This document shows, in pieces, positions 25,106 to 38,978 of a stretch of DNA of 64,000 nt. The stretch is taken from NCBI GenBank assembly GCA_020722005.1, contig DYLP01000011.1, positions 1 through 64,000 of the forward strand. The letters are read 5' to 3'. The position numbers and the translations under genes are program-made. Each line of letters opens with the position of its first letter. Within the stretch, counting starts at the first letter, position 1. The notes under the pieces were generated by a model. It was given only the letters and a program-made list of their open reading frames with translations. It had not been told where the DNA came from and did no database searches. The DNA is from Melioribacter roseus. Its GTDB lineage: Bacteria > Bacteroidota > Ignavibacteria > Ignavibacteriales > Melioribacteraceae.

Positions 25106-26107
25106 TTAGAATAAATCGATTTTGCCGTTGATATGCTTTGATTTGTCGATAATGTTGCCGTATTTGTCAACAACTCCTTCATGACAAATACCGCAAGCGC
25201 GTATCTCGTAACTTTCATGACCTGTAGGAGGCAAACCGTGGCATGTCCCGCATGCTGCCTGGCTTCCGTCCACCTGATTCCATTTCGGTGAAAAATTGTT
25301 TCCTGTTATTTTATCTGCTGTATAGACGAACTGATATTCCGAATTTTCTTTTTTGAATTCGAAATTGCCATGACAATAAGTGTTACTACAGGTGTTGTTT
25401 ACAAAATCATACGACGGATTTGAGGGTCCGGAAGAAGAAAGTGCACCAAAGATAACTTCTGCGTGTGGTGTGTTGTCGATGTGTCCCGGAGCTTCGAAGG
25501 TGGTCGGCAGTATATGGCATTCCGTACAGGATACTTGATTAGAAAGCAGGGAAGCATTCAAATGAGCTTGATGTGCCCCGACTGCCGGGTCTGTAGTTTT
25601 TTTTGCATTATTGGTAGCCTGTGGTGGGGCAATATTTCCACCTTTGTAAAAATCGCCGTGACAGGTGTTGCAAGCTTCAGGACCTCCTGCCTTATTATGA
25701 CAATTGATACATTGAGGGCTTGAATATCCTCCGGAATAATCTTCCCCGTGACATTGAGCGCATTGCGATAGATTCCAATTTGTTGCTGCAATAAATCTTC
25801 CGTGAAAATTTTCCGAATTGGGAAGTAAAATTCCATCTACGTGTACATTAATTGCCGGGTGACAATTTACACAGCTGACGCCCGCAGTACCACCCGAATA
25901 ATTCGAAGCATGGCATTGTTTACAGCTCTCCATACTATTATCTGTTAGCTTCTTGCCGTGGAAATTATCGGAGGATGGCGACAAAAATCCCGTACCGTGA
26001 ACACTCAGTTGAGCTGGTGGAGTAATTTCCTCCTGAACGTCGCTGCAGGAAGTTAAGACGATTAGTAGCGATAAAACCAAATAATATTTAATATATTTCA
26101 TAATCAA
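25106..26107 (-). CDS. Outer-membrane-type lipoprotein multiheme cytochrome c (8 CxxCH plus one CX4CH)
   Basis: Lipobox LTSCS; CKQCH, CVNCH, CAQCH, CINCH, CNTCH, CTECH, CSNTYCH, CGTCH, CGICH. Confidence 0.93.
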   Translation of the reverse strand: MIMKYIKYYLVLSLLIVLTSCSDVQEEITPPAQLSVHGTGFLSPSSDNFHGKKLTDNSMESCKQCHASNYSGGTAGVSCVNCHPAINVHVDGILLPNSENFHGRFIAATNWNLSQCAQCHGEDYSGGYSSPQCINCHNKAGGPEACNTCHGDFYKGGNIAPPQATNNAKKTTDPAVGAHQAHLNASLLSNQVSCTECHILPTTFEAPGHIDNTPHAEVIFGALSSSGPSNPSYDFVNNTCSNTYCHGNFEFKKENSEYQFVYTADKITGNNFSPKWNQVDGSQAACGTCHGLPPTGHESYEIRACGICHEGVVDKYGNIIDKSKHINGKIDLF

Positions 26108-26116
26108 CCCAAAAAT

Positions 26117-27322
26117 TTAATTGTGACAATAACTGCAGAAACCAACGCCTTTAATGCCGTCGGGACGAGCATTGGCATCCGTATGACACGAGTAGCATAC
26201 AGAATTAAAGTCGGAATGCCAATCGCCTTCGGAACTGTTCATGAATCCACTCACGTGGGTTTTCGGGTTAGTTCCTTTAACACCGTCGTTATCGACATGG
26301 CATAGAACGCAATTCGGGTCGGCGCCCTGAAGGTCGTGGCATGCAGAACACGATTCAATATCTCTCCTGGCAAGAATTGCGTGTTGTCCACCGCCTGTTC
26401 CAACTCCGATTGTAACAAAGTTCGGCTTTGAATGCGAAGCCGGCATGGTCCCTTCAAGCGCATAATCGCCGCCGCCGTTATTATGGCACTCGGCACAGAA
26501 AGTCTCTACCTGATGGCATGTCTGGCATTCTGTTGACTTGGTGTTTGCGTCGATACCGTGCGAAAAACGATAATTCAAATCATGAACTCGCGTTATCTGT
26601 TGCATCTTTGTGTTGTCTGTAAACTTATGCGGAGAATATGGAACATAAAAATCGGATTCGGAATTTGTCTCTGTCATCATGGTAGTCGAAACGTGACAAT
26701 CCTCGCAGAAACTGTTGTCGTGACACATTTCACAATTATTATCCATTGCCGTTGCTTTGAATTTGTGCGCTTTGAAGAACCCTACCTGCTGATGGTCCTC
26801 CGGAATGAGATTTACAGTTGAAATGTGGCAGACTTCGCAGTCGTTTACAGCTACCGATTTGTTGTTGTGGCATGTAATGCAACTACTCATCGGTGGATTG
26901 ACGCTTTTGGATTCAAAGCCATAATCTACACCGTCTAATCCTTTGTGGCATGTTGTACATTCTATCTTCTGCTCGTTGATATGAAAACTGTGGTTGAATA
27001 TCAACGAACTTTTTGTTTGAATCAGAGGCTCGAAAACTTCTTCATAATGACACATCTGACAATTATCCGTATCCTCAACGTCGTGACAAGTTGCACAAAC
27101 ACTTTTTTCAGGTAATAATCGGTCGTCGAGCTTTGTGCTGCTTGTAACATTGGTATGACACGACGCACAATCTGTTACTTCACTATGAAGCTCGTGAGAA
27201 AATTTAATTATATCTTTGTTGGTTTTACGGGGCTCATTGCCTTTATTCGCATCAATGGCTGCTACAGTAAGAAATACGAATATTAAAAGGCTGAGCGGCA
27301 GATAAATAAATTTAATTTTCAT
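26117..27322 (-). CDS. Multiheme c-type cytochrome, 14 CxxCH, predicted periplasmic
   Basis: Signal peptide and 14 counted CxxCH motifs. Confidence 0.93.
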   Translation of the reverse strand: MKIKFIYLPLSLLIFVFLTVAAIDANKGNEPRKTNKDIIKFSHELHSEVTDCASCHTNVTSSTKLDDRLLPEKSVCATCHDVEDTDNCQMCHYEEVFEPLIQTKSSLIFNHSFHINEQKIECTTCHKGLDGVDYGFESKSVNPPMSSCITCHNNKSVAVNDCEVCHISTVNLIPEDHQQVGFFKAHKFKATAMDNNCEMCHDNSFCEDCHVSTTMMTETNSESDFYVPYSPHKFTDNTKMQQITRVHDLNYRFSHGIDANTKSTECQTCHQVETFCAECHNNGGGDYALEGTMPASHSKPNFVTIGVGTGGGQHAILARRDIESCSACHDLQGADPNCVLCHVDNDGVKGTNPKTHVSGFMNSSEGDWHSDFNSVCYSCHTDANARPDGIKGVGFCSYCHN

Positions 27323-27328
27323 AATGGT

Positions 27329-28594
27329 CTACAAGTTTGTATTAAACAAGTAATTAACTTTGAATAAAACTCTGAAATCGTTTTTGTAAATCTTGTTGTT
27401 GAAATACTGAGTCTGGAAATCGAAGGACAAAATTCTCCATGGTCTGAAATTAATTCCAGCTAGAAGAGCGGTAATTGAATTGGTTTCGTCGTCGCTCGAA
27501 AGTTTATAGCTTGTGTATGTAACTCCGACCGAAGGAGTAATTAATCCTTCGACAAATGACTTTGCTAAATAGAGAGATACGGCGTCGAGTTCTCCTGCGT
27601 CGCCGAAAGTCTTTCTGAACGAAACCGAACCGTACTGAGTAGTAACACCGAGACTCAATCTCGAAGAATTTTCAGAATCGAATTTTACATTTCCATATTT
27701 TACAAAGAGGCGATAGAGACCAGATAATTTATAGTCAAGACCGCCTTCGATTTCCTGCGAATTACCGTAATCAAATACGGAGAATATCGAGTTGTAACGT
27801 ATTCTGGGCTCTCTGTAATTATAATAAAAGTTAAGACCCAGTTTGTCGGTTGCGTTTACTCTTCCGTCAAGTTCGAATTTTGAAGTCACTTCGTAATTCA
27901 AGTCGTATTCGTAACGCGTGCTTACATCGACGAGATTGTTGTACGAATAATAAGCATCGGCAGCTAATAATTTAAATTGATTTGATTTCGATTGAATCAG
28001 GATTGTAATGGGGTCGAGATTCTCGTCGAGGCGTTCAGCATAGTAATCGACCGATTTGAAATTTTTGTCGAAATACGAAATGCCGAGATGAAAATTTTTT
28101 AGTGCAACAGTTTCAAAACGTCCGCCCAAGATATAATCGTTGCTGAGGTCGTCGGTTAATTCGAGCTTTTGATAAGCCGGCAGGTTACCGCCGTAGAAAC
28201 CTGTCAGCGAGAATCCGGCATATTTTAATTTAAGATTAATACCGTCGAAAAGACCACCAGCCACAGGTGTAAACAGAGGCTGCCGTCCAAGTTTAACGGT
28301 GGCAATGCCGAAAAGGTCGCGCGCTTCGAGATAAAGATTGTAAAACCGAACGCGCGGGTCGGCATCGAGAGCATTGCCTAAATTACTTTCAAAATTAAAA
28401 CGAGTACGTAAAGAGAATTTAGAATAATTAGCGTTAAGGTTTAATGCTTGATACGTTCTGAAAAATGTTTCAGATGAACTGGCGGTATTAAATCTTTCAA
28501 ACGAATAAAACGAAGACGTAATTCTGCCGTTGATATTTTGAGCTTCTAATATGAACGGCAAGAATAGAAAAAATATTATTAATAACCTTTTCAT
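27329..28594 (-). CDS. Outer-membrane beta-barrel (porin-like)
   Basis: Signal peptide; alternating amphipathic strands throughout (for example LNANYSKFSLRTRFNFES, GLNFYYNYREPRIRYNSIFS); ends in FRVLFKVNYLFNTNL. Confidence 0.85.
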   Translation of the reverse strand: MKRLLIIFFLFLPFILEAQNINGRITSSFYSFERFNTASSSETFFRTYQALNLNANYSKFSLRTRFNFESNLGNALDADPRVRFYNLYLEARDLFGIATVKLGRQPLFTPVAGGLFDGINLKLKYAGFSLTGFYGGNLPAYQKLELTDDLSNDYILGGRFETVALKNFHLGISYFDKNFKSVDYYAERLDENLDPITILIQSKSNQFKLLAADAYYSYNNLVDVSTRYEYDLNYEVTSKFELDGRVNATDKLGLNFYYNYREPRIRYNSIFSVFDYGNSQEIEGGLDYKLSGLYRLFVKYGNVKFDSENSSRLSLGVTTQYGSVSFRKTFGDAGELDAVSLYLAKSFVEGLITPSVGVTYTSYKLSSDDETNSITALLAGINFRPWRILSFDFQTQYFNNKIYKNDFRVLFKVNYLFNTNL

Positions 28595-28603
28595 GTTCTG
28601 CCT

Positions 28604-29149
28604 TTATTTTTTAGGAACAGGGTGAGCAATTTGAGTCCACATTTTCGCAAAATTGAATTCTTTGTAAGTTGGGCTTTCTTCGTTGTGGCAAGTTTTGCAA
28701 TATTTTTCGATTTCGGTTTCGTCTTTCCAGATTCTCAAACCGTTTTTAATGGCTTCTTCACGATTTTTCATTACTTTCATCGATTTATAATCTTCTCCTG
28801 GACCATGGCATGTTTCGCATTGAACGCCGTCTGCAACAGAGAATTTCTTGCCGAGCAATTTAGGGTCGGCGTCATAACCGCTTGCGTGGCATTTTAGACA
28901 TTTGGGATTTTCAACAGCTTTTACGTCGCCAGAAAGTTTATTTGCTTCTTCTGTCATAAGTGTTTTGTAAGCACTGGCATGTTTACTATTCTGCCATATT
29001 TTTAATTGTTCGCCTTGCTTTTCAGTCTTGTGACACATTCCGCATGATTCTGCTCCAATATAACCGTGACCCTGTGCCTTCGATGTACCGGCAAATAAAA
29101 AGAAACATAATACCACCACCATGGTAATATTGATACCATTTCTAAACAT
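28604..29149 (-). CDS. Tetraheme c-type cytochrome, cytochrome c554-like
   Basis: Signal peptide; CGMCH, CLKCH, CETCH, CKTCH; YIGAESCGMCHKTEKQGEQLKIWQNSKHASAYKTL. Confidence 0.9.
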   Translation of the reverse strand: MFRNGINITMVVVLCFFLFAGTSKAQGHGYIGAESCGMCHKTEKQGEQLKIWQNSKHASAYKTLMTEEANKLSGDVKAVENPKCLKCHASGYDADPKLLGKKFSVADGVQCETCHGPGEDYKSMKVMKNREEAIKNGLRIWKDETEIEKYCKTCHNEESPTYKEFNFAKMWTQIAHPVPKK

Positions 29150-29232
29150 ATTTCCTCCATTTTTTATTTGTTGTTGACCATTAATTTATAATGAATATAG
29201 CTCTATCAATATTAAGAGGCAAGTGTCTTTTT

Positions 29233-31638
29233 TTATCTTTGTTTCTCTCCTTTTACTTCTGTATTTAATTTATTGTCGAGCCATAGTCTAAGTTCGGGGT
29301 CGTTTTCGAGTTCTTTGTCGAAAACAATGTCAGGGTCAAGATTATTTTCTCGTAGCGTTTTAGTAAATAGAAGGGTAGAGTTGCTTAGTCTTTTTTCTTC
29401 TCTTTTGCCAGCTTTATATACTTTCCATTCCAGAAGAACTTTTCTGAAATGTTTTTCGTGATGATGTCTGTAATTCTGGAGTGTCATTTTGCCGTCAATC
29501 CAGGTCAAGCTCATCGGGTATTCATGTGGATGGAAAATAACAAAGAACCAGTGCCATACTAATATTGCAAGAGTAGCAAGAATAGCTTCGTAGAAATGAA
29601 TCAATTCGCTAACTTTAATCAACCATATCGGAGCCCAATCGCCTACAACTGTTGGAAACCAGAGAATAAATCCTGTCGTTCCCATTATTAGAGTGCCCCA
29701 AATTAAAGCCCAGTATTCAGCTTTTTCGGTATAATCGTATTTATCGTAAATCGGTTTTTCTTTATTAACTCTCAAGTAATAAAGTATGGTATCTCTCGCC
29801 TCGATTATGTCGGTATGTTTGGGCAATAAATTTTTGAGAACTTCTCTTCCTCGTGGTGTAAAAAGAAGATAAAAGATGTGATATATGCCTACGCCAATCA
29901 TAACAACGGCAGCACCACGGTGAATATATTGACGAACGGTTTCGGTCATTCCAAAGTACATTAAGAGTTCTGCCCACCAGCTTGTGGAGTATTTAAGTGC
30001 AAAGCCTGTAATTGCCAGAACGATGAACGATATGAACAGTAGAAAATGTTGAACAACTTCGTTCTTTGTAAAGCGAGGTATCGTAATTTCTTTTTCGGTT
30101 CTTTTTTTCTTCTTTTTAATTTCATATAAAAAGATGAGCAGATTGTGCAGAATCATGCCGCCTATAACAGAAATGATCAACCAGAAATAGATATCGGTTA
30201 CAATTTGTTCAACTTTGGCAGCTTTTTCATTTATTGTAACGTGTGAATAACTTTGTGAGAAGACTGGAGTAGCATCAGGATGACATTTTTTACATGTTTC
30301 CGTAACGTTTGATATATTGACAGTGGATTCGGGATGTTCTTTGGGTAAAATCTTATGTACGCCATGGCAATCGACGCACATTGCTGCATCCTTATCGCCG
30401 CGCATAACGGCGAGCCCGTGATAGCTATCCAGGTACGATTTAGCCTTATTCCCGTTTATACCGAAACGTTCGGCAATGAGCGGATTCTCGTGGCAAACCA
30501 TACAAGTTTTTTGCTGTATTTTCCGGGCTTCGAGCCTTTTGTCTTTACCGGAAATTGGATTAATATCGTGTTCGTTATGGCAATCGTTGCAAACGGGTGA
30601 TTCACGGTAGCCTTTTTTTGCTCGAATCCAGTGAATCGATTCCATATATTCTCTGGCTTCTTTTTCGTGGCATTGACCGCATGTTTCAGGCAGATTAAAA
30701 GCTGAAATTTTCGAACCCTGCTGAACTTTATTCTTTATATCGTGAACTCCGTGACATGTTATGCAAGAAGGTCCTTTTTTCCCTTCTTTTATAATCATTC
30801 CGTGAATTGATTGATTATATTTTTTACCCGGGGTAACTAAACCGATGTCGTATTTCTTTGCAAGTTCAGGGTTGTCATGACATTTGCTACACGTAATGCT
30901 GATGTTTACTTGATTTACAGGACTGGATGGGTGATCAATTTTCTTAATATTATGCGAACCGTGGCAATCCCAGCATTTGGCAGCGTCGTCGATACCTTGG
31001 CTGAGTGCAATTCCGTGGATGCTTTCTTTATGCTCCGCTGCAATTTCTACATGGCATACATCGCAATTAGCAATTTCCTTTATTTTTAAATTTTTCGGAT
31101 GTTCCGAAATATTTTGAGCAATGAAACTATGACAATCTGAACATTCGAGTTTGCTATGGACAGAAGTGGGAAGTGTTAATTTCACGTCTTCCTTTTTATG
31201 GCAGCTCAGGCAATTGTCTTTGCTGACATTCTTAGCATGATAACTCGTAAGCAGAGGCTTGGCTTCGTGGCATTTCGAGCAGTAATTTCTTGAATTGACA
31301 GAGAGGGAAGTCGATGGTTTTTTGACATTATGCGAGCCGTGACATGAAACGCATCCAGGAGCGTTCTTAATTTTCAATCTGTGATGGATATCTGTTTCAA
31401 CTGAGGTAATCTTGTCGTCGTGGCAAATTGTACAGTCAACTTTTTTAGCACCTTTGTCTATATGTTCTTCATCAACCACATCCTGGTGACAATCCTGACA
31501 TTCGATAGCTTCGAAATGAACGGATTTTTCGATACTTACTTCATGACAGTCGAGGCAATTAAAATCTTGAGCATTTAATTCATGATTAAATAATATAAAT
31601 AGAGAAAACGCACAAAAAAGAATGGTATTACGAATCAT
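29233..31638 (-). CDS. Fusion of a 16-heme c-type cytochrome with a C-terminal membrane cytochrome b domain (CbcL-like quinone oxidoreductase architecture)
   Basis: 16 CxxCH motifs, then TM helices with conserved His (FTKNEVVQHFLLFISFIVLAITGFALKY, YIHRGAAVVMIGVGIYHIFYLLF, LIHFYEAILATLAILVWHWFFVIFHPHEYP). Confidence 0.9.
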   Translation of the reverse strand: MIRNTILFCAFSLFILFNHELNAQDFNCLDCHEVSIEKSVHFEAIECQDCHQDVVDEEHIDKGAKKVDCTICHDDKITSVETDIHHRLKIKNAPGCVSCHGSHNVKKPSTSLSVNSRNYCSKCHEAKPLLTSYHAKNVSKDNCLSCHKKEDVKLTLPTSVHSKLECSDCHSFIAQNISEHPKNLKIKEIANCDVCHVEIAAEHKESIHGIALSQGIDDAAKCWDCHGSHNIKKIDHPSSPVNQVNISITCSKCHDNPELAKKYDIGLVTPGKKYNQSIHGMIIKEGKKGPSCITCHGVHDIKNKVQQGSKISAFNLPETCGQCHEKEAREYMESIHWIRAKKGYRESPVCNDCHNEHDINPISGKDKRLEARKIQQKTCMVCHENPLIAERFGINGNKAKSYLDSYHGLAVMRGDKDAAMCVDCHGVHKILPKEHPESTVNISNVTETCKKCHPDATPVFSQSYSHVTINEKAAKVEQIVTDIYFWLIISVIGGMILHNLLIFLYEIKKKKKRTEKEITIPRFTKNEVVQHFLLFISFIVLAITGFALKYSTSWWAELLMYFGMTETVRQYIHRGAAVVMIGVGIYHIFYLLFTPRGREVLKNLLPKHTDIIEARDTILYYLRVNKEKPIYDKYDYTEKAEYWALIWGTLIMGTTGFILWFPTVVGDWAPIWLIKVSELIHFYEAILATLAILVWHWFFVIFHPHEYPMSLTWIDGKMTLQNYRHHHEKHFRKVLLEWKVYKAGKREEKRLSNSTLLFTKTLRENNLDPDIVFDKELENDPELRLWLDNKLNTEVKGEKQR

Positions 31639-31847: not shown

Positions 31848-31871
31848 ATCCCGCAGTTTTTGATGCGGGAT
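31848..31871 (-). terminator. Rho-independent terminator downstream of the response regulator gene
   Basis: ATCCCGCA / TGCGGGAT stem, 8 nt loop, T-run on the minus strand. Confidence 0.8.
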
Positions 31872-31879
31872 AAATCAAT

Positions 31880-33022
31880 TTATTTTTCAAAAAACGAGCC
31901 CGTAACCAAATACCAGTCTTTATCTTCGAGGTTTTCAATACCGCTGAATGCACCCTCTGAACCGTTTGCTCTTTTGACTTTATCTTTAAAATTTTCAATA
32001 TATCGATCGATTTCTTCCTGATAAAATGCAACGGCGCTTTTTCCGATTTTGAGTTCTGCAAGTTCAGACTCGAGATTTTCAGCATCGAGCACACAAATCC
32101 AATTTTTTCCGTAAGGAGTTATATCGAGCAGGTCGATATTTTCTCTTAGTTCATTATTGATTGCTTTAACCTGCCCGCTTAAAGGTGATGCAAATTTGAT
32201 TACCCGATTTTTTTGAGTTAGACTAAATAATGTTTGTCCTTTTTTAATATTCATACCGAGGTTTGGAAATTCGACATTATCGATTTTACCGACAATTTTT
32301 TTAGTAAAGTCGTCGATTCCAATTCGAGCTGAACCGTCTTCGGTAATTGCAGCCCAACAGTGATTATCCGAAATAAAAACCCCGCCGGGAATCGAGAATT
32401 CACCCTGCCCGATTTTTTCAGTCTCAGGTAAATGAGAAATATGAACTCGTGGCTTGAGTTGCTTTTTAATTTGCTCCTGTCGTTTGATGAGGCATTTTTT
32501 TGTGAAATCGAGGAGTTCATCTTCTGTAAACGGTTTTTGAACGTAATCCATCGCTCCGTATTTCATACATTCAACGGCTGATTCAACGGTGGCATATCCG
32601 GTTATGATTATTACGTCGATATCGGGTCTTAGGTGTTTTATCGTTTTGGTTACTTCTACGCCGTCCATTTCGGGCATTTTCAGATCGGTAAATACGAAAT
32701 CGTAATGATGACTCTGTACAAGAGTAATGGCTTCGGGTCCAGAATTAACAGTGTCAACCGAGTAGCCATCCAGTACCAGTATTTTCCGAAAACTGTCTAA
32801 AACCACGTCTTCATCATCAACACAAAGAATACGAGCCTTCGGGTTTGGAACTTCAGCTCTTTTTAATGTTTTGACTTCTTTGCCGTAGTCGACCTTAATG
32901 ACTTCAGCAAGCACCGCTTCTCTTTCTTTGCGGAGTTTTGCCTCTTCATATTTTTTGATAAATAATCTGATTATTACATCCACAATTATCAAAATGATTA
33001 AAAGTAAAACAAATAATGACAT
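31880..33022 (-). CDS. Membrane-anchored response regulator (TM + REC) fused to a GcvH-like domain
   Basis: N-terminal TM MSLFVLLLIILIIVDVIIRLFI; REC ILCVDDEDVVLDSFRKIL...FTDLKMPEMDG...QKPF; GcvH-like NHCWAAITEDGSARIGIDDFTKKIVGKIDNVEFPNLGMNIKKGQ...SPLSGQVKAIN. Confidence 0.85.
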   Translation of the reverse strand: MSLFVLLLIILIIVDVIIRLFIKKYEEAKLRKEREAVLAEVIKVDYGKEVKTLKRAEVPNPKARILCVDDEDVVLDSFRKILVLDGYSVDTVNSGPEAITLVQSHHYDFVFTDLKMPEMDGVEVTKTIKHLRPDIDVIIITGYATVESAVECMKYGAMDYVQKPFTEDELLDFTKKCLIKRQEQIKKQLKPRVHISHLPETEKIGQGEFSIPGGVFISDNHCWAAITEDGSARIGIDDFTKKIVGKIDNVEFPNLGMNIKKGQTLFSLTQKNRVIKFASPLSGQVKAINNELRENIDLLDITPYGKNWICVLDAENLESELAELKIGKSAVAFYQEEIDRYIENFKDKVKRANGSEGAFSGIENLEDKDWYLVTGSFFEK

Positions 33023-33046: not shown

Positions 33047-33865
33047 TTATCTGTCGGAACTACACTGGATTAAATTTTCCATTTCATCTTTTATGTTCGT
33101 TGGAATCACTTTATAAAACCATCCTTCGAAATACGGGTCTTTTTCGATCAATTCAGGATTTTCAATGAGCTTTTCGTTGCGGTCGATTATTCGACAGCTA
33201 AGCGGCATGATAAAAGAATGGGTTAAACCGTCGTTGTCTGTAATATAAGCCGAGAATGCCGCCTGTGAAATTTTATCGTTTATTTGAAGCAGCTCAATTT
33301 TTCTAACCCCTTCAGTTAGTTTTACAAACAAGTCCGTCACTCCTGTAACAAAACTTCCATAGCTAAATCCTTCGCTGATGATATTAACTTGCAAATCTTG
33401 CTTTATCCACGAATTATACCCGAATCGATAGTACTTAGAAGGACAGGACACATAGAGCAAATTGTTTTGGTCTTGAACTTTTTTACGATTCAGATTGCTG
33501 TAGGTTATGCCTCTTTTGATAATGGCAGAAAGTTCGTCGATTGTAAAAGGTTTGGGAAGAAAATCGAACGCCCCGAGCTTTATCGATTTAACCGCCATCT
33601 CCGGTGTTGTATAACCGGTAATCATTATTACGGGAGATTCATATCCGATAGAGCCGAGCGATTTTAAGATTTCAAAACCGTCTTTGTCGGGCAGCATAAT
33701 ATCGCAGATAACCAGTCTGTATTTATTTTGTTTTATTTTTTGTATTGCAATATCATAAGTCTCAGCAGAATCAGCCGTCAGATTATTGAGTTTACAAATT
33801 TTCATAATCGAGTCTATAATGACCGATTCGTCGTCGATAATCAATATATCGAAATCGTTATTCAT
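33047..33865 (-). CDS. Response regulator (REC) fused to a divergent GcvH-like domain
   Basis: REC ILIIDDESVIIDSI...CDIMLPDKDG...PKPF; C-terminal NEKLIENPELIEKDPYFEGWFYKVIPTN resembles the GcvH segment [24 protein letters not shown]. Start chosen at MNNDFDILIID. Confidence 0.8.
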   Translation of the reverse strand: MNNDFDILIIDDESVIIDSIMKICKLNNLTADSAETYDIAIQKIKQNKYRLVICDIMLPDKDGFEILKSLGSIGYESPVIMITGYTTPEMAVKSIKLGAFDFLPKPFTIDELSAIIKRGITYSNLNRKKVQDQNNLLYVSCPSKYYRFGYNSWIKQDLQVNIISEGFSYGSFVTGVTDLFVKLTEGVRKIELLQINDKISQAAFSAYITDNDGLTHSFIMPLSCRIIDRNEKLIENPELIEKDPYFEGWFYKVIPTNIKDEMENLIQCSSDR

Positions 33866-35750
33866 AATTTTCAGCCGGAAGTTTAATTGAAAAAGTAGTT
33901 CCTTTGCCAGGTTCACTCTTAACTGAAATTGTACCATCGTGATTGTCGATTATTCCCCAAACTACGGATAATCCAAGTCCTGTTCCTTTTTGTCCTTTGG
34001 TAGTAAAGAAGGGTTCGAATATGTGAGTTAAATGTTCCTGCGGAATACCACATCCGTCGTCTGAAATTTCAATCTCGACAAATTTTCTGACTCCGGAATT
34101 GTCAATTCTTTCCCACCTCTGCCAGTCGTCGTTAAATGAAGCACACATTTCTACATAGCCTTTGCCAGGTACTTCGAATTTGAAGACGGGTCCGCCACAA
34201 ACCGGACACTTTAGATTCCGGTCAATCAACGATATGTCGCATACCGGACAGTGAATACTTATGCGAGAATTTTTTTCAATAGGTATTCCGAAGTAATGTT
34301 GTGCTCTGCCGTAAATCGGGTCGATGAATACGTTCCCTTCGTTTTCGCCCGATTTTATTTTTACTCGAATGGAAGACATTCCGGCTATTTTATTTTCGTT
34401 GTCGATCAAATTGTGATTCTTTGGACAAAGTGCCGCTTTGATATGCGTATATCCTTTAGGAGGCAACGAAAGTTGTTTTGTCTTGATTACAATTTCTCCT
34501 CCTTTTTTGCCGATTGCGTCGATTGCATTTAAAATAAGGTTTAACAGTACCTGCTGAGTTTGATTCTGATCGGCTGCAATTTGCGGTAAATTATTGTCGA
34601 ATATTTTTGTCAGTTTTATATTATTGAGAGACAGCTGGTTATGTACGACCGATTCGGTCCTTTTGATAATTTCGTTGATATTAATTAGATTTTTTTTAGG
34701 TGACGATTGTCTGGAAAAATCGAGAAGGCTTCTTACGATATCTCGGCAGCGGATAGTTTCCCTAACAATTACCTGTAGGTCTTCCTGCAATTCTGGATTG
34801 TCCTTAGCTCGTTTCATTAAATAGCTGCTGTATGTTAGTACTCCTGTTAAAGGATTGTTTATTTCATGTGCCACGCCGGCAGCCAGCTTGCCCAGAGAAG
34901 CCATTTTATCCGATTGGAATAATTGCTGTTGAGTTTCGTAAAGTTTTTTTGTCATGTTATTGAAGGATTTTGCAAGGTATCCCAATTCATCTTTACCTAT
35001 CTCTTTAATTTCATAAGTTAAATTTCCGGCGGCAATCTGATTGGTTGCTTTAACTAATTCTTTAACAGGATGGTCGACCCATCTTTTGACAAAAATGCTT
35101 ATGATTATCCCAATTGAAAGAATCGATACGATTGTAAAAATCAATTCCTGTATCTCGTTTTGTTTAATAGTTTCGTCGATTTCTTCGAGAGATATTGTAA
35201 TATCGAGGACACCCAGAACCGAGGCATTCTTGGGGTGTGCATGGCATTCGGCTTCGTAACACGATTTCTCATTGAAAATTGGATTTATTATTCCCATAAT
35301 TCTCGGACTCTTGTCGCCGAGTTTGAAAATTCGCGTTCTCTGTTTTATCGGAAGACGTTCAAGCGGCTTATTCTCGGCATGGCAGGCGTAACAACTTTCG
35401 GCTTTTTTATCGAGCATTTTGCCGAGGTCTTTCGAATTGCTTGAATAAATTATTCTGCCTTCTTTATTGTAAATTCTGATATTGTCGATCGTTTTGTCCT
35501 GCCCGATAGTCTTTACAATTTCGTCTACATATTCTCTTTGATTGAGCAACATTCCGTAACGTGTGCTGTTTTTAATAGTTTCACTGAGCTGATTGGCATG
35601 ACGTTCAACCTCGGCAAGGAGGCAATTAGTTTGATAATTAATTTTGATATAGGCATAAATTCCTATTATCGAAACGACAGTAAGACTAACAATCAGAATT
35701 AATTTCAATCCGATCTTTCTGAAAAACTGAATTTCATTAAGTCCGTTCAT
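33858..35750 (-). CDS. Sensor histidine kinase with periplasmic heme-c-motif sensor domain, HAMP, HisKA and an interrupted HATPase
   Basis: ESCYACHAENK and CYEAECHAHP in the extracytoplasmic region; HAMP; GVAHEINNPLTGVLTY H-box; NLILNAIDAI N-box; DDGCGIP; KGTGLGLSVV. Confidence 0.93.
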   Translation of the reverse strand: MNGLNEIQFFRKIGLKLILIVSLTVVSIIGIYAYIKINYQTNCLLAEVERHANQLSETIKNSTRYGMLLNQREYVDEIVKTIGQDKTIDNIRIYNKEGRIIYSSNSKDLGKMLDKKAESCYACHAENKPLERLPIKQRTRIFKLGDKSPRIMGIINPIFNEKSCYEAECHAHPKNASVLGVLDITISLEEIDETIKQNEIQELIFTIVSILSIGIIISIFVKRWVDHPVKELVKATNQIAAGNLTYEIKEIGKDELGYLAKSFNNMTKKLYETQQQLFQSDKMASLGKLAAGVAHEINNPLTGVLTYSSYLMKRAKDNPELQEDLQVIVRETIRCRDIVRSLLDFSRQSSPKKNLININEIIKRTESVVHNQLSLNNIKLTKIFDNNLPQIAADQNQTQQVLLNLILNAIDAIGKKGGEIVIKTKQLSLPPKGYTHIKAALCPKNHNLIDNENKIAGMSSIRVKIKSGENEGNVFIDPIYGRAQHYFGIPIEKNSRISIHCPVCDISLIDRNLKCPVCGGPVFKFEVPGKGYVEMCASFNDDWQRWERIDNSGVRKFVEIEISDDGCGIPQEHLTHIFEPFFTTKGQKGTGLGLSVVWGIIDNHDGTISVKSEPGKGTTFSIKLPAENYE

Positions 35751-36841
35751 CGTTTAACTACCTTTCCGGGTTTATTTTGCGGATACGATTTATCGTCGTG
35801 ACAATTATTACAGCTCCTTTCCTGATAAGTCGGCTCGGTATGGCAATTTTCACATTCGAATTCAACGTGAGTTTCGTCGAGAATTAATCCGGTTACCTTG
35901 TGATCGAAATTATCTGTAGTCCAGATGCCGTGACAGTTTTTACATTCTTTTTTGAGTCCTGTATATTTACCTTTGGTTACGTGGCATCTGGAACATTTTA
36001 ATTCGGAATGGAATTTAGAAATATCGAATCCGGTGCGTTGTTTATGATTGAACACCGGTTTTTCGACATTCGAATGACATAAGTTGCAAGATTTTTTATC
36101 CTCCGTGTCGTGGCATTTATTGCACTTCGAATGAAGTATTGCTGGAGATTGTTTAAGCGCAGATTTATTCGTTGCATGGCATTTTACACAGCTCTCGTTT
36201 TTATGGCAGTCGCTACACTCGAATCCAAAAATTTTATTGTGTTCTTCGTGATAAAATGTTACCAGTTTGCCGCCGGTAAAATTTGTATTATATACTTTCT
36301 TTATCGGTGCCTTAATTTCAGGATGTATTGATTTTTTGTTAATTGATTTAAGTGTCAAATCTTCTTGCATGCCGGCGGGTTTATGGCAGCTTATACATTC
36401 AATTTCGCCGCTCCATTCTCGATGGCATGAAATACAAAGACGATGGTATGCGGCTTTGAGGTCGGGTTTGCTGATATCGATTCGCTTACGTTGAGGGCTG
36501 TGACATTTTGAGCAACTAATTATATTCCCAGGCGGATTGTAATGATGGCAAATTCTGCAGTCGCCTGACATAATCGACATATCCGAATGTGCATAATGGT
36601 CGAATATCGACGGTCCATACAAATTAGTTTCTTTTATCCTGTCGATTTTAATTATTCGTGGCGCTTCCTCCGGTTTTTGATTTATTCGAATTAACTCTTC
36701 TCTTGGACACTCTCCTAAGCACGGATTCTCCTTCGTTGGAATATCGCATGAATGGCACGTTTTACATTCTAAGTTTAATTTAGAATGTTGTGCATACAGA
36801 ATTAGAGGCGTCAGCAATAAAACTAATATTATTTTTTTCAT
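35747..36841 (-). CDS. Multiheme c-type cytochrome, 13 CxxCH (Hmc/Cbc-like)
   Basis: Signal peptide and 13 counted CxxCH motifs; adjacent to NrfD and ferredoxin genes. Confidence 0.93.
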   Translation of the reverse strand: MKKIILVLLLTPLILYAQHSKLNLECKTCHSCDIPTKENPCLGECPREELIRINQKPEEAPRIIKIDRIKETNLYGPSIFDHYAHSDMSIMSGDCRICHHYNPPGNIISCSKCHSPQRKRIDISKPDLKAAYHRLCISCHREWSGEIECISCHKPAGMQEDLTLKSINKKSIHPEIKAPIKKVYNTNFTGGKLVTFYHEEHNKIFGFECSDCHKNESCVKCHATNKSALKQSPAILHSKCNKCHDTEDKKSCNLCHSNVEKPVFNHKQRTGFDISKFHSELKCSRCHVTKGKYTGLKKECKNCHGIWTTDNFDHKVTGLILDETHVEFECENCHTEPTYQERSCNNCHDDKSYPQNKPGKVVKR

Positions 36842-38076
36842 TATTTACCTCTGATAAAAAATTTAGTTTTAGAAGTCAAAGGCTGCGGTACAGAGACAAT
36901 CGGGAATATCATAACAAAAGTACGGAACAGAAGTATTTCAAGTGCTACAAAACCGAGAGTTACAAGTATCTCTCCGATTGAGGGGAAGTATGGTGTGAAT
37001 TTATACGGTGGATTGTAGGCTATTATAAAATTATTTATTCTGTTCAAGAGTACACCAAGTATAACAAGAGCCGAGCCAATAAAAAGTCCTGCACGGGTTT
37101 TGGTAAGTTTGGGTGAAATAAATATTCTTAGCGGAACTATAATGCCAAAGATAATTTCGATTAGGAAAAGAATACTTGCGGTGTTTAGTTCATTCAGATA
37201 AACAAAAGTTTGGCGAATTACCATGTCTCCGAGTTTAAATGCCAGATAAATGCCCAATAAAGGAGCAATCATAGTACCGAGATTTGAAAGGACTTTCATC
37301 TCAGGTTTTAGTCCGAAAGATTTGGAAGTAATCAGAGACTCGAAAATTACCATTGGAAAACCAACCGAGATTGCCGAGAGGAGAAAGAGAAGAGGTAGTA
37401 TTGGAGTTTGCCAGAGGGGGTGCATTTTCGGACCGGCAATTACCATTAATGTGCCGAGTGACGATTGATGCAAACACGAAAGAACCACTCCTGCAATTAT
37501 AAATATGAACATAGTTTTGTCGAGAGTTTTATCGAGTATTCTTAGCAGAGAATCGACTGGTTTGTTTAATACAGAAAGGAAACCCGGCAAACTTACTCTG
37601 CCGATAAATCTTTCGGTAACTATCGGTATAAATTCAATATAGAGAACTGTCAAATATGCCATAACGCACATACCGACTTCGAATAATACGGAGTTTCCGT
37701 TCCACATAATGAGAGGATGCCATATATAATACCAGCGACCGAGATCCATAGCAACGCTGAGCGCCACAAAAGTATATCCCAGCAAGGCAGTAAGCAGAGC
37801 GGGTCGAACAATGGCGTGATATTCCTCTTTGTGCATTATATGACCCAAAGCGGCAGTAGTAAATCCACCTGCAGCCAGTGCAACTCCGGCTGCAACGTCA
37901 ATTCCAATCCAGATTCCCCACGGATACTGATTACTTAAATTGGTCACAGCTCCAAGCCCGAAGAATAATCTTGCCAGTAAAAACAAAATTCCTATTGTGG
38001 CAAATACAAAAATGACAATTACTCCGGGAGTAAAATATTTAGTCTTAAGCGGAGTCGGTTTCATAAAATCTTCCAT
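36841..38076 (-). CDS. NrfD/PsrC-family membrane subunit (quinone-interacting)
   Basis: Polytopic; NQYPWGIWIGIDVAAGVALAAGGFTTAALGHIM, MDLGRWYYIWHPLIMWNGNSVLFEVGMCVMAYLTVLYIEF. Confidence 0.92.
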   Translation of the reverse strand: MEDFMKPTPLKTKYFTPGVIVIFVFATIGILFLLARLFFGLGAVTNLSNQYPWGIWIGIDVAAGVALAAGGFTTAALGHIMHKEEYHAIVRPALLTALLGYTFVALSVAMDLGRWYYIWHPLIMWNGNSVLFEVGMCVMAYLTVLYIEFIPIVTERFIGRVSLPGFLSVLNKPVDSLLRILDKTLDKTMFIFIIAGVVLSCLHQSSLGTLMVIAGPKMHPLWQTPILPLLFLLSAISVGFPMVIFESLITSKSFGLKPEMKVLSNLGTMIAPLLGIYLAFKLGDMVIRQTFVYLNELNTASILFLIEIIFGIIVPLRIFISPKLTKTRAGLFIGSALVILGVLLNRINNFIIAYNPPYKFTPYFPSIGEILVTLGFVALEILLFRTFVMIFPIVSVPQPLTSKTKFFIRGK

Positions 38077-38978
38077 TATTCTTCCCCCTCTTCTGATTTT
38101 TTACGATTTTTATTTATCCACATTACGCCACCAAGTAAAGCATAGAGCGCAATTGGAGGCAGAAAATAGGCGAATACCCCGTGTTGAATTGCTTCTGTAA
38201 CGCCTGGTGCGGGACTGTTCCCCAGTTTAGGAAATTGTAAATCCTCAAATTTTCTGCTTGCAAGATAAAGCCAGGCTGTGCCTCCTACTTCTGTTTCACC
38301 GTAAATATGATTAATGTATCTGTCGGGATAAAGTTCGATTTTACGCCGCGCAATGTCAATCAAATCTTTTCGTCTGCCGTAGGTGAGTGCTTCCATTGGA
38401 CAAATTTCGACACAAGCGGGGAGTTTTCCTTCTTTAGTTCGACTGAAACAAAAGTCGCATTTTTTTATTTCGGGTTGAATTGCTTTATGAAATTCAAAAG
38501 ACGGAATTTGGAATGGGCAGGCAACCATGCAATATCGGCAGCCGATGCATTTACTCGAGTCCCAGATTACGCTCCCGTTTTCCTCTTTCGAAAAGGCGCC
38601 AACAATACATGCCGATACGCAAGCGGGATGGTCGCAATGCATACATTGTACTTTTACGTCGATTGGGAATTCGGGATAGTCATCGAATTCATATTCATTT
38701 ACAACGGTCAAAGAAGTATGATCGGGCCGACGCATTTTTTTCATGACTTCTCTATTGTCGTAAGATTCAAGTGGAGTAGTAGGCATATTGTGAGCTGTTT
38801 TGCAAGCCCATTCACATTTCCGGCATCCTACACATACAGTTGTATCAACCAGTACACCCATCCTGTCTTCAGATAAAATGTTTTTAGGAGCAGCATCCGT
38901 CTTTTTAGGTAGTCCTGCAATTACAGAACCTGCGACAGCTGCCGTTTTAATGAAGTTTCTTCTTGTTTGCTTCGACAT
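38076..38978 (-). CDS. TAT-exported 4Fe-4S ferredoxin subunit with C-terminal TM anchor (HybA/HmcB-like)
   Basis: TAT signal QTRRNFIKTAAVAGSVIAG; CVGCRKCEWAC, CMHCDHPACVSAC, CIGCRYCMVAC; C-terminal TM helix. Confidence 0.93.
   Translation of the reverse strand: MSKQTRRNFIKTAAVAGSVIAGLPKKTDAAPKNILSEDRMGVLVDTTVCVGCRKCEWACKTAHNMPTTPLESYDNREVMKKMRRPDHTSLTVVNEYEFDDYPEFPIDVKVQCMHCDHPACVSACIVGAFSKEENGSVIWDSSKCIGCRYCMVACPFQIPSFEFHKAIQPEIKKCDFCFSRTKEGKLPACVEICPMEALTYGRRKDLIDIARRKIELYPDRYINHIYGETEVGGTAWLYLASRKFEDLQFPKLGNSPAPGVTEAIQHGVFAYFLPPIALYALLGGVMWINKNRKKSEEGEE

Follow-up and report, generated by a model that had tools for sequence, protein, structure and literature searches.

What might a response regulator control when its receiver domain is followed by neither a DNA-binding nor an enzymatic domain? 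Response regulators mostly act on DNA or are enzymes. The question is raised by one gene of the window (i.e., the whole stretch of 64,000 nucleotides that was analyzed, from a contig assigned to Melioribacter roseus), the product of which is here referred to as RRG1. The original prediction, made from the DNA letters, described RRG1 as an N-terminal transmembrane (TM) helix and a receiver (REC) domain ending in a GcvH-like region with Asn in place of the lipoyl lysine, and suggested direct protein-protein control of a membrane complex. In the genome collection, the nearest relatives of the 2.66 Mb source genome are Melioribacteraceae/Ignavibacteria.

The architecture expected for RRG1 was confirmed in all its parts (Table 1). 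Residues 1-26 form the sole strongly hydrophobic segment of the protein (maximum Kyte-Doolittle value 3.19), and a similar N-terminal segment is found in 72 of the 73 long relatives. The REC domain holds the acidic pocket, the phosphoacceptor Asp, the Thr/Ser, and the Lys (D69, D70, D113, T141, and K163, invariant in 52 relatives); RRG1 is in these respects a predicted two-component response regulator, expected to be phosphorylated by a kinase. The GcvH-like region, placed beforehand at about 32000-32392, lies within that interval and scores 67.3 bits against the Pfam cut-off of 22.2. In agreement with the expectation that helix-turn-helix (HTH) and enzymatic outputs are lacking, the domain profile search found no HTH, enzymatic, or other output domain in RRG1, and only GCV_H follows REC, with none of the DNA-binding outputs of the NtrC, OmpR, or NarL types. 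Structure prediction could have pointed to a different fold. An AlphaFold model built from 52 relatives (mean pLDDT 89.5, and >90 over most of the C-terminal domain) had as its best PDB matches in Foldseek the glycine-cleavage H-proteins 1onl and 3a8j (TM by target length 0.90-0.92, rmsd 1.4-1.7). Since Pfam and AlphaFold/Foldseek agree, the assignment of the C-terminal domain to GcvH is far beyond chance; the fold residues common to the RRG1 family and GcvH are H221, W223, D237, P280, G283, and N289.

Table 1. Features of the RRG1 operon, in window positions
Feature	Position	Strand	Remarks
Intrinsic-terminator-like hairpin + T5	31848-31871	-	directly 3' of RRG1
RRG1, membrane-anchored REC-GcvH-like protein	31880-33022	-	380 aa ORF
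RRG1 C-terminal helical tail, aa 337-380	31883-32014	-	homologous to tail of REC-less TM-GcvH
RRG1 GcvH-like domain, aa 219-336	32015-32368	-	Pfam GCV_H 1.5e-18
RRG1 Cys310 codon	32093-32095	-	Cys in 73/76 RRG1 relatives
RRG1 Asn272 codon, lipoyl lysine position	32207-32209	-	not kept as Lys in family
RRG1 REC domain, aa 65-172	32507-32830	-	Pfam 7.6e-32
RRG1 N-terminal TM segment, aa 1-22	32957-33022	-	F/D15/R19 pattern kept in relatives
RRG2, soluble REC-GcvH-like protein, about 272 aa	33047-33865	-	GCV_H 2e-11; lipoyl position not Lys
Membrane histidine kinase	33858-35750	-	two periplasmic c-haem motifs, HAMP, HisKA, HATPase interrupted by insert
Kinase Cys-rich zinc-ribbon-like insert in HATPase, aa about 430-552	34095-34463	-	conserved Cys/His
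Kinase sensor c-haem motifs CYACH (aa 120-124), CYEAECH (aa 164-170)	35241-35393	-	in 63/63 full-length relatives
Multihaem cytochrome c (class III-like)	35747-36841	-	domain profile match
NrfD/HybB/HmcC-like integral membrane subunit	36841-38076	-	domain profile match
HmcB/HybA-like 4Fe-4S subunit	38076-38978	-	RRNF Tat-type leader, C-terminal TM

The lipoyl site itself was assessed next to canonical GcvH proteins. Asn272 falls on the lipoyl lysine both in a profile alignment to the genome's own GcvH and in a MAFFT alignment that included 11 canonical GcvH of related genomes, each of the 11 with Lys in this column, and the ungapped alignment again gave Asn at this position with Lys (Lys271) one residue earlier, as had been noticed. 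Across 77 RRG1 relatives, the column reads N14 T11 S11 K10 G6 and others, i.e., Lys in 10/77; the residue after it is basic in 65/77 (R37 K16 H12). Lys is as good as absent from this column in the RRG2 family (1/59), which has a nearly invariant His just past it (57/59), and in REC-less, membrane-anchored GcvH-like proteins (here referred to as TM-GcvH; 1/17). Lys271 was considered as a shifted lipoyl site and rejected, the column being mostly Gly/Asn (G44 N15 K9). The predicted hairpin tip of the RRG1 GcvH domain retains charge, not a lipoyl acceptor. The genome holds only three GCV_H genes, namely, RRG1, RRG2, and a true GcvH (C11:71385-71738) that keeps the lipoyl Lys.

A still lipoylated RRG1, modified by a variant ligase or at Lys271 and serving as a redox-active arm that REC controls, is very improbable. 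The retained GcvH fold, Lys271, and the ten relatives with Lys at the exact column would allow it, and the LbpA proteins, which are GcvH-like and lipoylated, do act in a different redox system (PMC6067878); however, none of the positions -1, 0, and +1 has a conserved lysine, and the lysine of LbpA is strictly conserved (PMC6067878), unlike in RRG1. That the domain is a degenerate GcvH without a specific role, carried along in a decaying fusion, is hardly credible. The lipoyl site has been lost and the hairpin is variable, as decay would have it, but full-length identity is 44-75% over several phyla, the fold residues listed above are invariant, Cys310 is nearly so, and REC-GcvH proteins form two separate clades. 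Cys310 occupies a site without Cys in the aligned GcvH or TM-GcvH. The alignments suggest strong purifying selection on the GcvH-like domain.

The genomic setting gives the GcvH-like domain a putative partner. On one strand, the operon runs in the order Fe-S subunit, NrfD subunit, cytochrome, kinase, RRG2, and RRG1; from Fe-S through RRG2, neighboring genes either touch or share a few bases, and the hairpin behind RRG1 is likely the end of the transcription unit. It divides the operon from a CbcL-like gene, which is not kept adjacent in all lineages. The partner of RRG1 is best read as the predicted HmcB/HmcC-like Fe-S/NrfD module together with its cytochrome. Downstream, positions 25106-31638 encode multihaem cytochromes, a CbcL-like cytochrome b fusion, a c554-like protein, and a porin-like protein, in an order that is kept in Melioribacteraceae-type loci; this looks like an extracellular electron-transfer cluster.

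Two neighbors had been overlooked in the original prediction: the gene adjoining RRG1 also encodes a REC-GcvH protein, and the upstream kinase is a dihaem sensor. RRG2, the next gene upstream of RRG1, combines REC and GcvH without a TM segment (its ORF is open to 33937, with the start inferred at Met25, 33865). The periplasmic part of the kinase carries a CXXCH and a CX4CH motif, and the dihaem sensor is also found in the kinases of REC-less GcvH systems. Within the HATPase insert, C442, H446, C501, C504, C518, and C536 (residues of metal-ligand type) are kept in 57/67 relatives; the insert is missing from KSB1/Acidobacteria-type loci. In the structure model of the kinase, the insert forms a beta-rich unit of good confidence, and a structure search with the kinase model returned only histidine-kinase-type matches among the best 50, with none for the insert. 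Metal or redox input within the catalytic domain of a kinase would be unusual.

A scan of species genomes gave 79 RRG1 relatives, the majority full length, in Ignavibacteria, Calditrichota, KSB1, Betaproteobacteria, Gammaproteobacteria, Acidobacteria, Elusimicrobia, Gemmatimonadetes, and Krumholzibacteria (organism names as in the records, mostly metagenome-assembled genomes). RRG1 was present in 21 of 297 genomes sampled from the phylum, and a class-wide search around one Burkholderiales relative found it in 1/274 genomes, namely the genome at the center of the search, so RRG1 is rare in that class. Linkage was tallied over 59 loci flanked on one side by at least 7 kb of sequence: both Fe-S and NrfD matches occur in 51/59 and a kinase match in 56/59. 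The chance of finding NrfD within 10 kb is about 1.5%, given two NrfD genes in the 2.66 Mb genome. In L008, L046, and L049, NrfD is present and the Fe-S match was not detected, and in L013, L041, L051, and L072 the contig ends too early on one side. A true exception is the Elusimicrobia locus L040 (7281-12567), with the order kinase-RRG2-RRG1-RRG1 and no Fe-S/NrfD gene detected within 10 kb.

Other GCV_H genes were then sought in the genomes of relatives, which led to the TM-GcvH proteins. These have about 215-290 aa, with an N-terminal TM segment, a lipoate-free GcvH domain, and a conserved tail, and contain no REC. (One family search at 1e-15 was too loose, in that canonical GcvH also matched; its tallies were excluded.) TM-GcvH proteins flank Fe-S/NrfD genes, often together with a second GcvH protein carrying a Cys-rich N-terminal motif. 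The latter is soluble, follows NrfD, and has the N-terminal motif C(I/V)WM...YKLCD...F(D/E)C(E/D)NC (e.g., L083, L087, L090, L104, L120, and L126); its lipoyl position is Trp in four aligned cases. The original idea that RRG1 controls a membrane complex through direct protein-protein contact may now be regarded as much better motivated, because RRG1 relatives adjoin Fe-S/NrfD in almost every intact locus and because REC-less, membrane-anchored, lipoate-free GcvH proteins flank Fe-S/NrfD genes elsewhere.

Once the REC columns are removed, RRG1 aligns end to end with the TM-GcvH family. The RRG1 tail alone matches TM-GcvH at 97.8% (E 6.6e-13), and the TM segment alone at 82% (E 1e-5, modest by itself), vs 0.1% for a mismatched control. 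In a tree of GcvH domains, the order of whose clades depends on about 140 columns, RRG1 forms one clade (98/90) that is joined to a TM-GcvH clade (99/94), and RRG2 (98/91) and canonical GcvH (100/100) stand apart. Based on this collinearity, the tail homology, and the nesting in the tree, the simplest origin of RRG1 would be a TM-GcvH protein that received an inserted REC; RRG2 may go back to a REC-GcvH fusion of its own. In L031 and L033, a REC-less TM-GcvH beside Fe-S/NrfD genes adjoins an RRG1 operon. Two RRG1 paralogues per locus occur in L014, L024, L065, L069, and L109. In these loci, one RRG1 heads the cytochrome-Fe-S-NrfD genes, which is the slot of TM-GcvH in the REC-less system, and the other follows kinase-RRG2.

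That TM-GcvH proteins with an RRG1-type tail stand beside Fe-S/NrfD genes indicates that a GcvH protein lacking REC can be part of the complex. The GcvH-like domain might then be a constitutive structural subunit of the Fe-S/NrfD complex, with REC governing assembly or turnover and not activity. This is rated as quite improbable, in that many loci have a soluble RRG2 or two RRG1 copies, which fits signalling better than a fixed stoichiometry.

The REC-less systems also bear on a second alternative, in which the output is still transcription: RRG1 and RRG2 would be docking or phosphate-sink proteins that tune how the dihaem kinase signals to a distinct NtrC-type regulator, with GcvH merely keeping them near the complex. 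It is regarded as the main rival because NtrC-type regulators partner the REC-less systems and occur near some RRG1 loci: apart from truncated loci, nearly all of the TM-GcvH loci examined have an NtrC-type regulator and a dihaem kinase beside TM-GcvH, and such regulators lie close to RRG1 in L043, L045, L052, and L069. Nevertheless, there is no NtrC-type gene in the RRG1 operon in the window or in most loci, two REC-GcvH proteins with intact phosphorylation sites come right after the kinase, and the TM-GcvH body is kept end to end, which would be needless for a pure sink. A transcriptional output is, on balance, unlikely.

The reading preferred here, with a probability of roughly 0.5, is that the Fe-S/NrfD/cytochrome c complex of the operon has its own dedicated redox-sensing two-component system, in which RRG1 and RRG2 are the two response regulators and a lipoate-free GcvH docking module takes the place of a transcription factor as output. 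It builds on what can be read from the sequences, i.e., the architecture, fold, lipoyl-site loss, REC residues, family, linkage, and collinearity. Electrons from the periplasmic haem chain would set the state of the dihaem kinase, which would phosphorylate the REC aspartates of RRG1 and RRG2. The GcvH domain of RRG1 would be tethered on the cytoplasmic side of the membrane, acting as a scaffold and not as a swinging arm, and phosphorylation would alter its docking on the NrfD subunit, thereby tuning quinone/cytochrome electron flow or the assembly of the complex. RRG2, which is soluble, may act as competitor, partner, or sink for phosphate. Several observations speak against this reading: the NtrC-type regulators near some RRG1 loci could give a transcriptional output via cross-talk, Lys occupies the lipoyl column in ten RRG1 relatives, and L040 is without an Fe-S/NrfD gene. 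A more far-reaching proposal, offered tentatively and at somewhat less than even odds, is that membrane-anchored, lipoate-free GcvH proteins are regular subunits of widespread Fe-S/NrfD quinone-cytochrome complexes, and that in the present lineage such a subunit has gained REC, so that a haem redox sensor can switch a respiratory complex through phosphorylation, with transcription playing no part.

The RRG1/RRG2 system is a variant of two-component signalling and not a new category, and the mechanism outlined for it is plausible. Its output would be a former cofactor carrier that now acts as a scaffold and is linked to a respiratory membrane module. If true, this would give bacteria with multihaem electron-transfer chains a direct and fast route to adjust electron flow, provide a role for many 'glycine cleavage H protein' annotations unable to carry lipoate, and supply a partner signalling system for a previously unassigned Fe-S/HybB/cytochrome module. 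Among the open-access papers covered, no description of REC-GcvH, of GcvH with NrfD, or of GCV_H combined with Response_reg was found, which is weak evidence of absence; REC-GcvH is apparently an undescribed conserved family and system.

Several known systems share parts of this arrangement. RRG1 has the same fold as GcvH (PF01597), with the H-x-W, G-x-D-x-F/Y, P-x-x-G, and N core, but it is without the conserved lipoyl lysine, is fused to TM and REC, and does not lie beside gcv genes, canonical GcvH being encoded separately. The LbpA proteins of the sHdr sulfur-oxidation system are lipoate-carrying GcvH homologues in a redox gene cluster, in which the lysine is strictly conserved (PMC6067878). 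LbpA and RRG1 have in common that a GcvH homologue has been taken into the service of a redox enzyme system, its gene lying in the cluster of that system; LbpA proteins differ from RRG1 in the strict lipoyl lysine and in that no REC or TM is described for them (PMC6067878). The partner of LbpA is Hdr-like, whereas RRG1 has Fe-S, NrfD, cytochrome, and kinase neighbors and no Hdr-like genes. With respect to the kinase, PAS-like periplasmic sensor domains with c-haem motifs, some with two, are reported for Adeh_2011 and Adeh_3383; no GcvH-type output is described, and in the portion of that source consulted a zinc-ribbon-like HATPase insert is not mentioned (PMC3831638). The Hmc system of Desulfovibrio comprises HmcA-F with rrf1/rrf2, which are described as regulators of hmc expression (PMC10924467). 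It resembles the present operon in having an HmcB-like tail-anchored Fe-S protein, an HmcC/HybB-like membrane subunit, a multihaem cytochrome, and regulator genes in the cluster. The predicted Fe-S and NrfD subunits of the window are homologous to HmcB and HmcC below the equivalog level, scoring 331 vs an NCBIfam cut-off of 420 and 268 vs 550, respectively. No 16-haem HmcA was seen, and the upstream cytochrome matches the HmcA model weakly (38 bits vs 400). Lastly, for modules of a tail-anchored Fe-S protein, a HybB-like quinol oxidase, and cytochrome c, 'no pattern of conservation' was reported in the flanking genes (PMC10924467); the core of Fe-S, NrfD/HybB, and cytochrome c is alike in these modules and in the RRG1 operon, where it is joined by a dihaem kinase and GcvH-like proteins.
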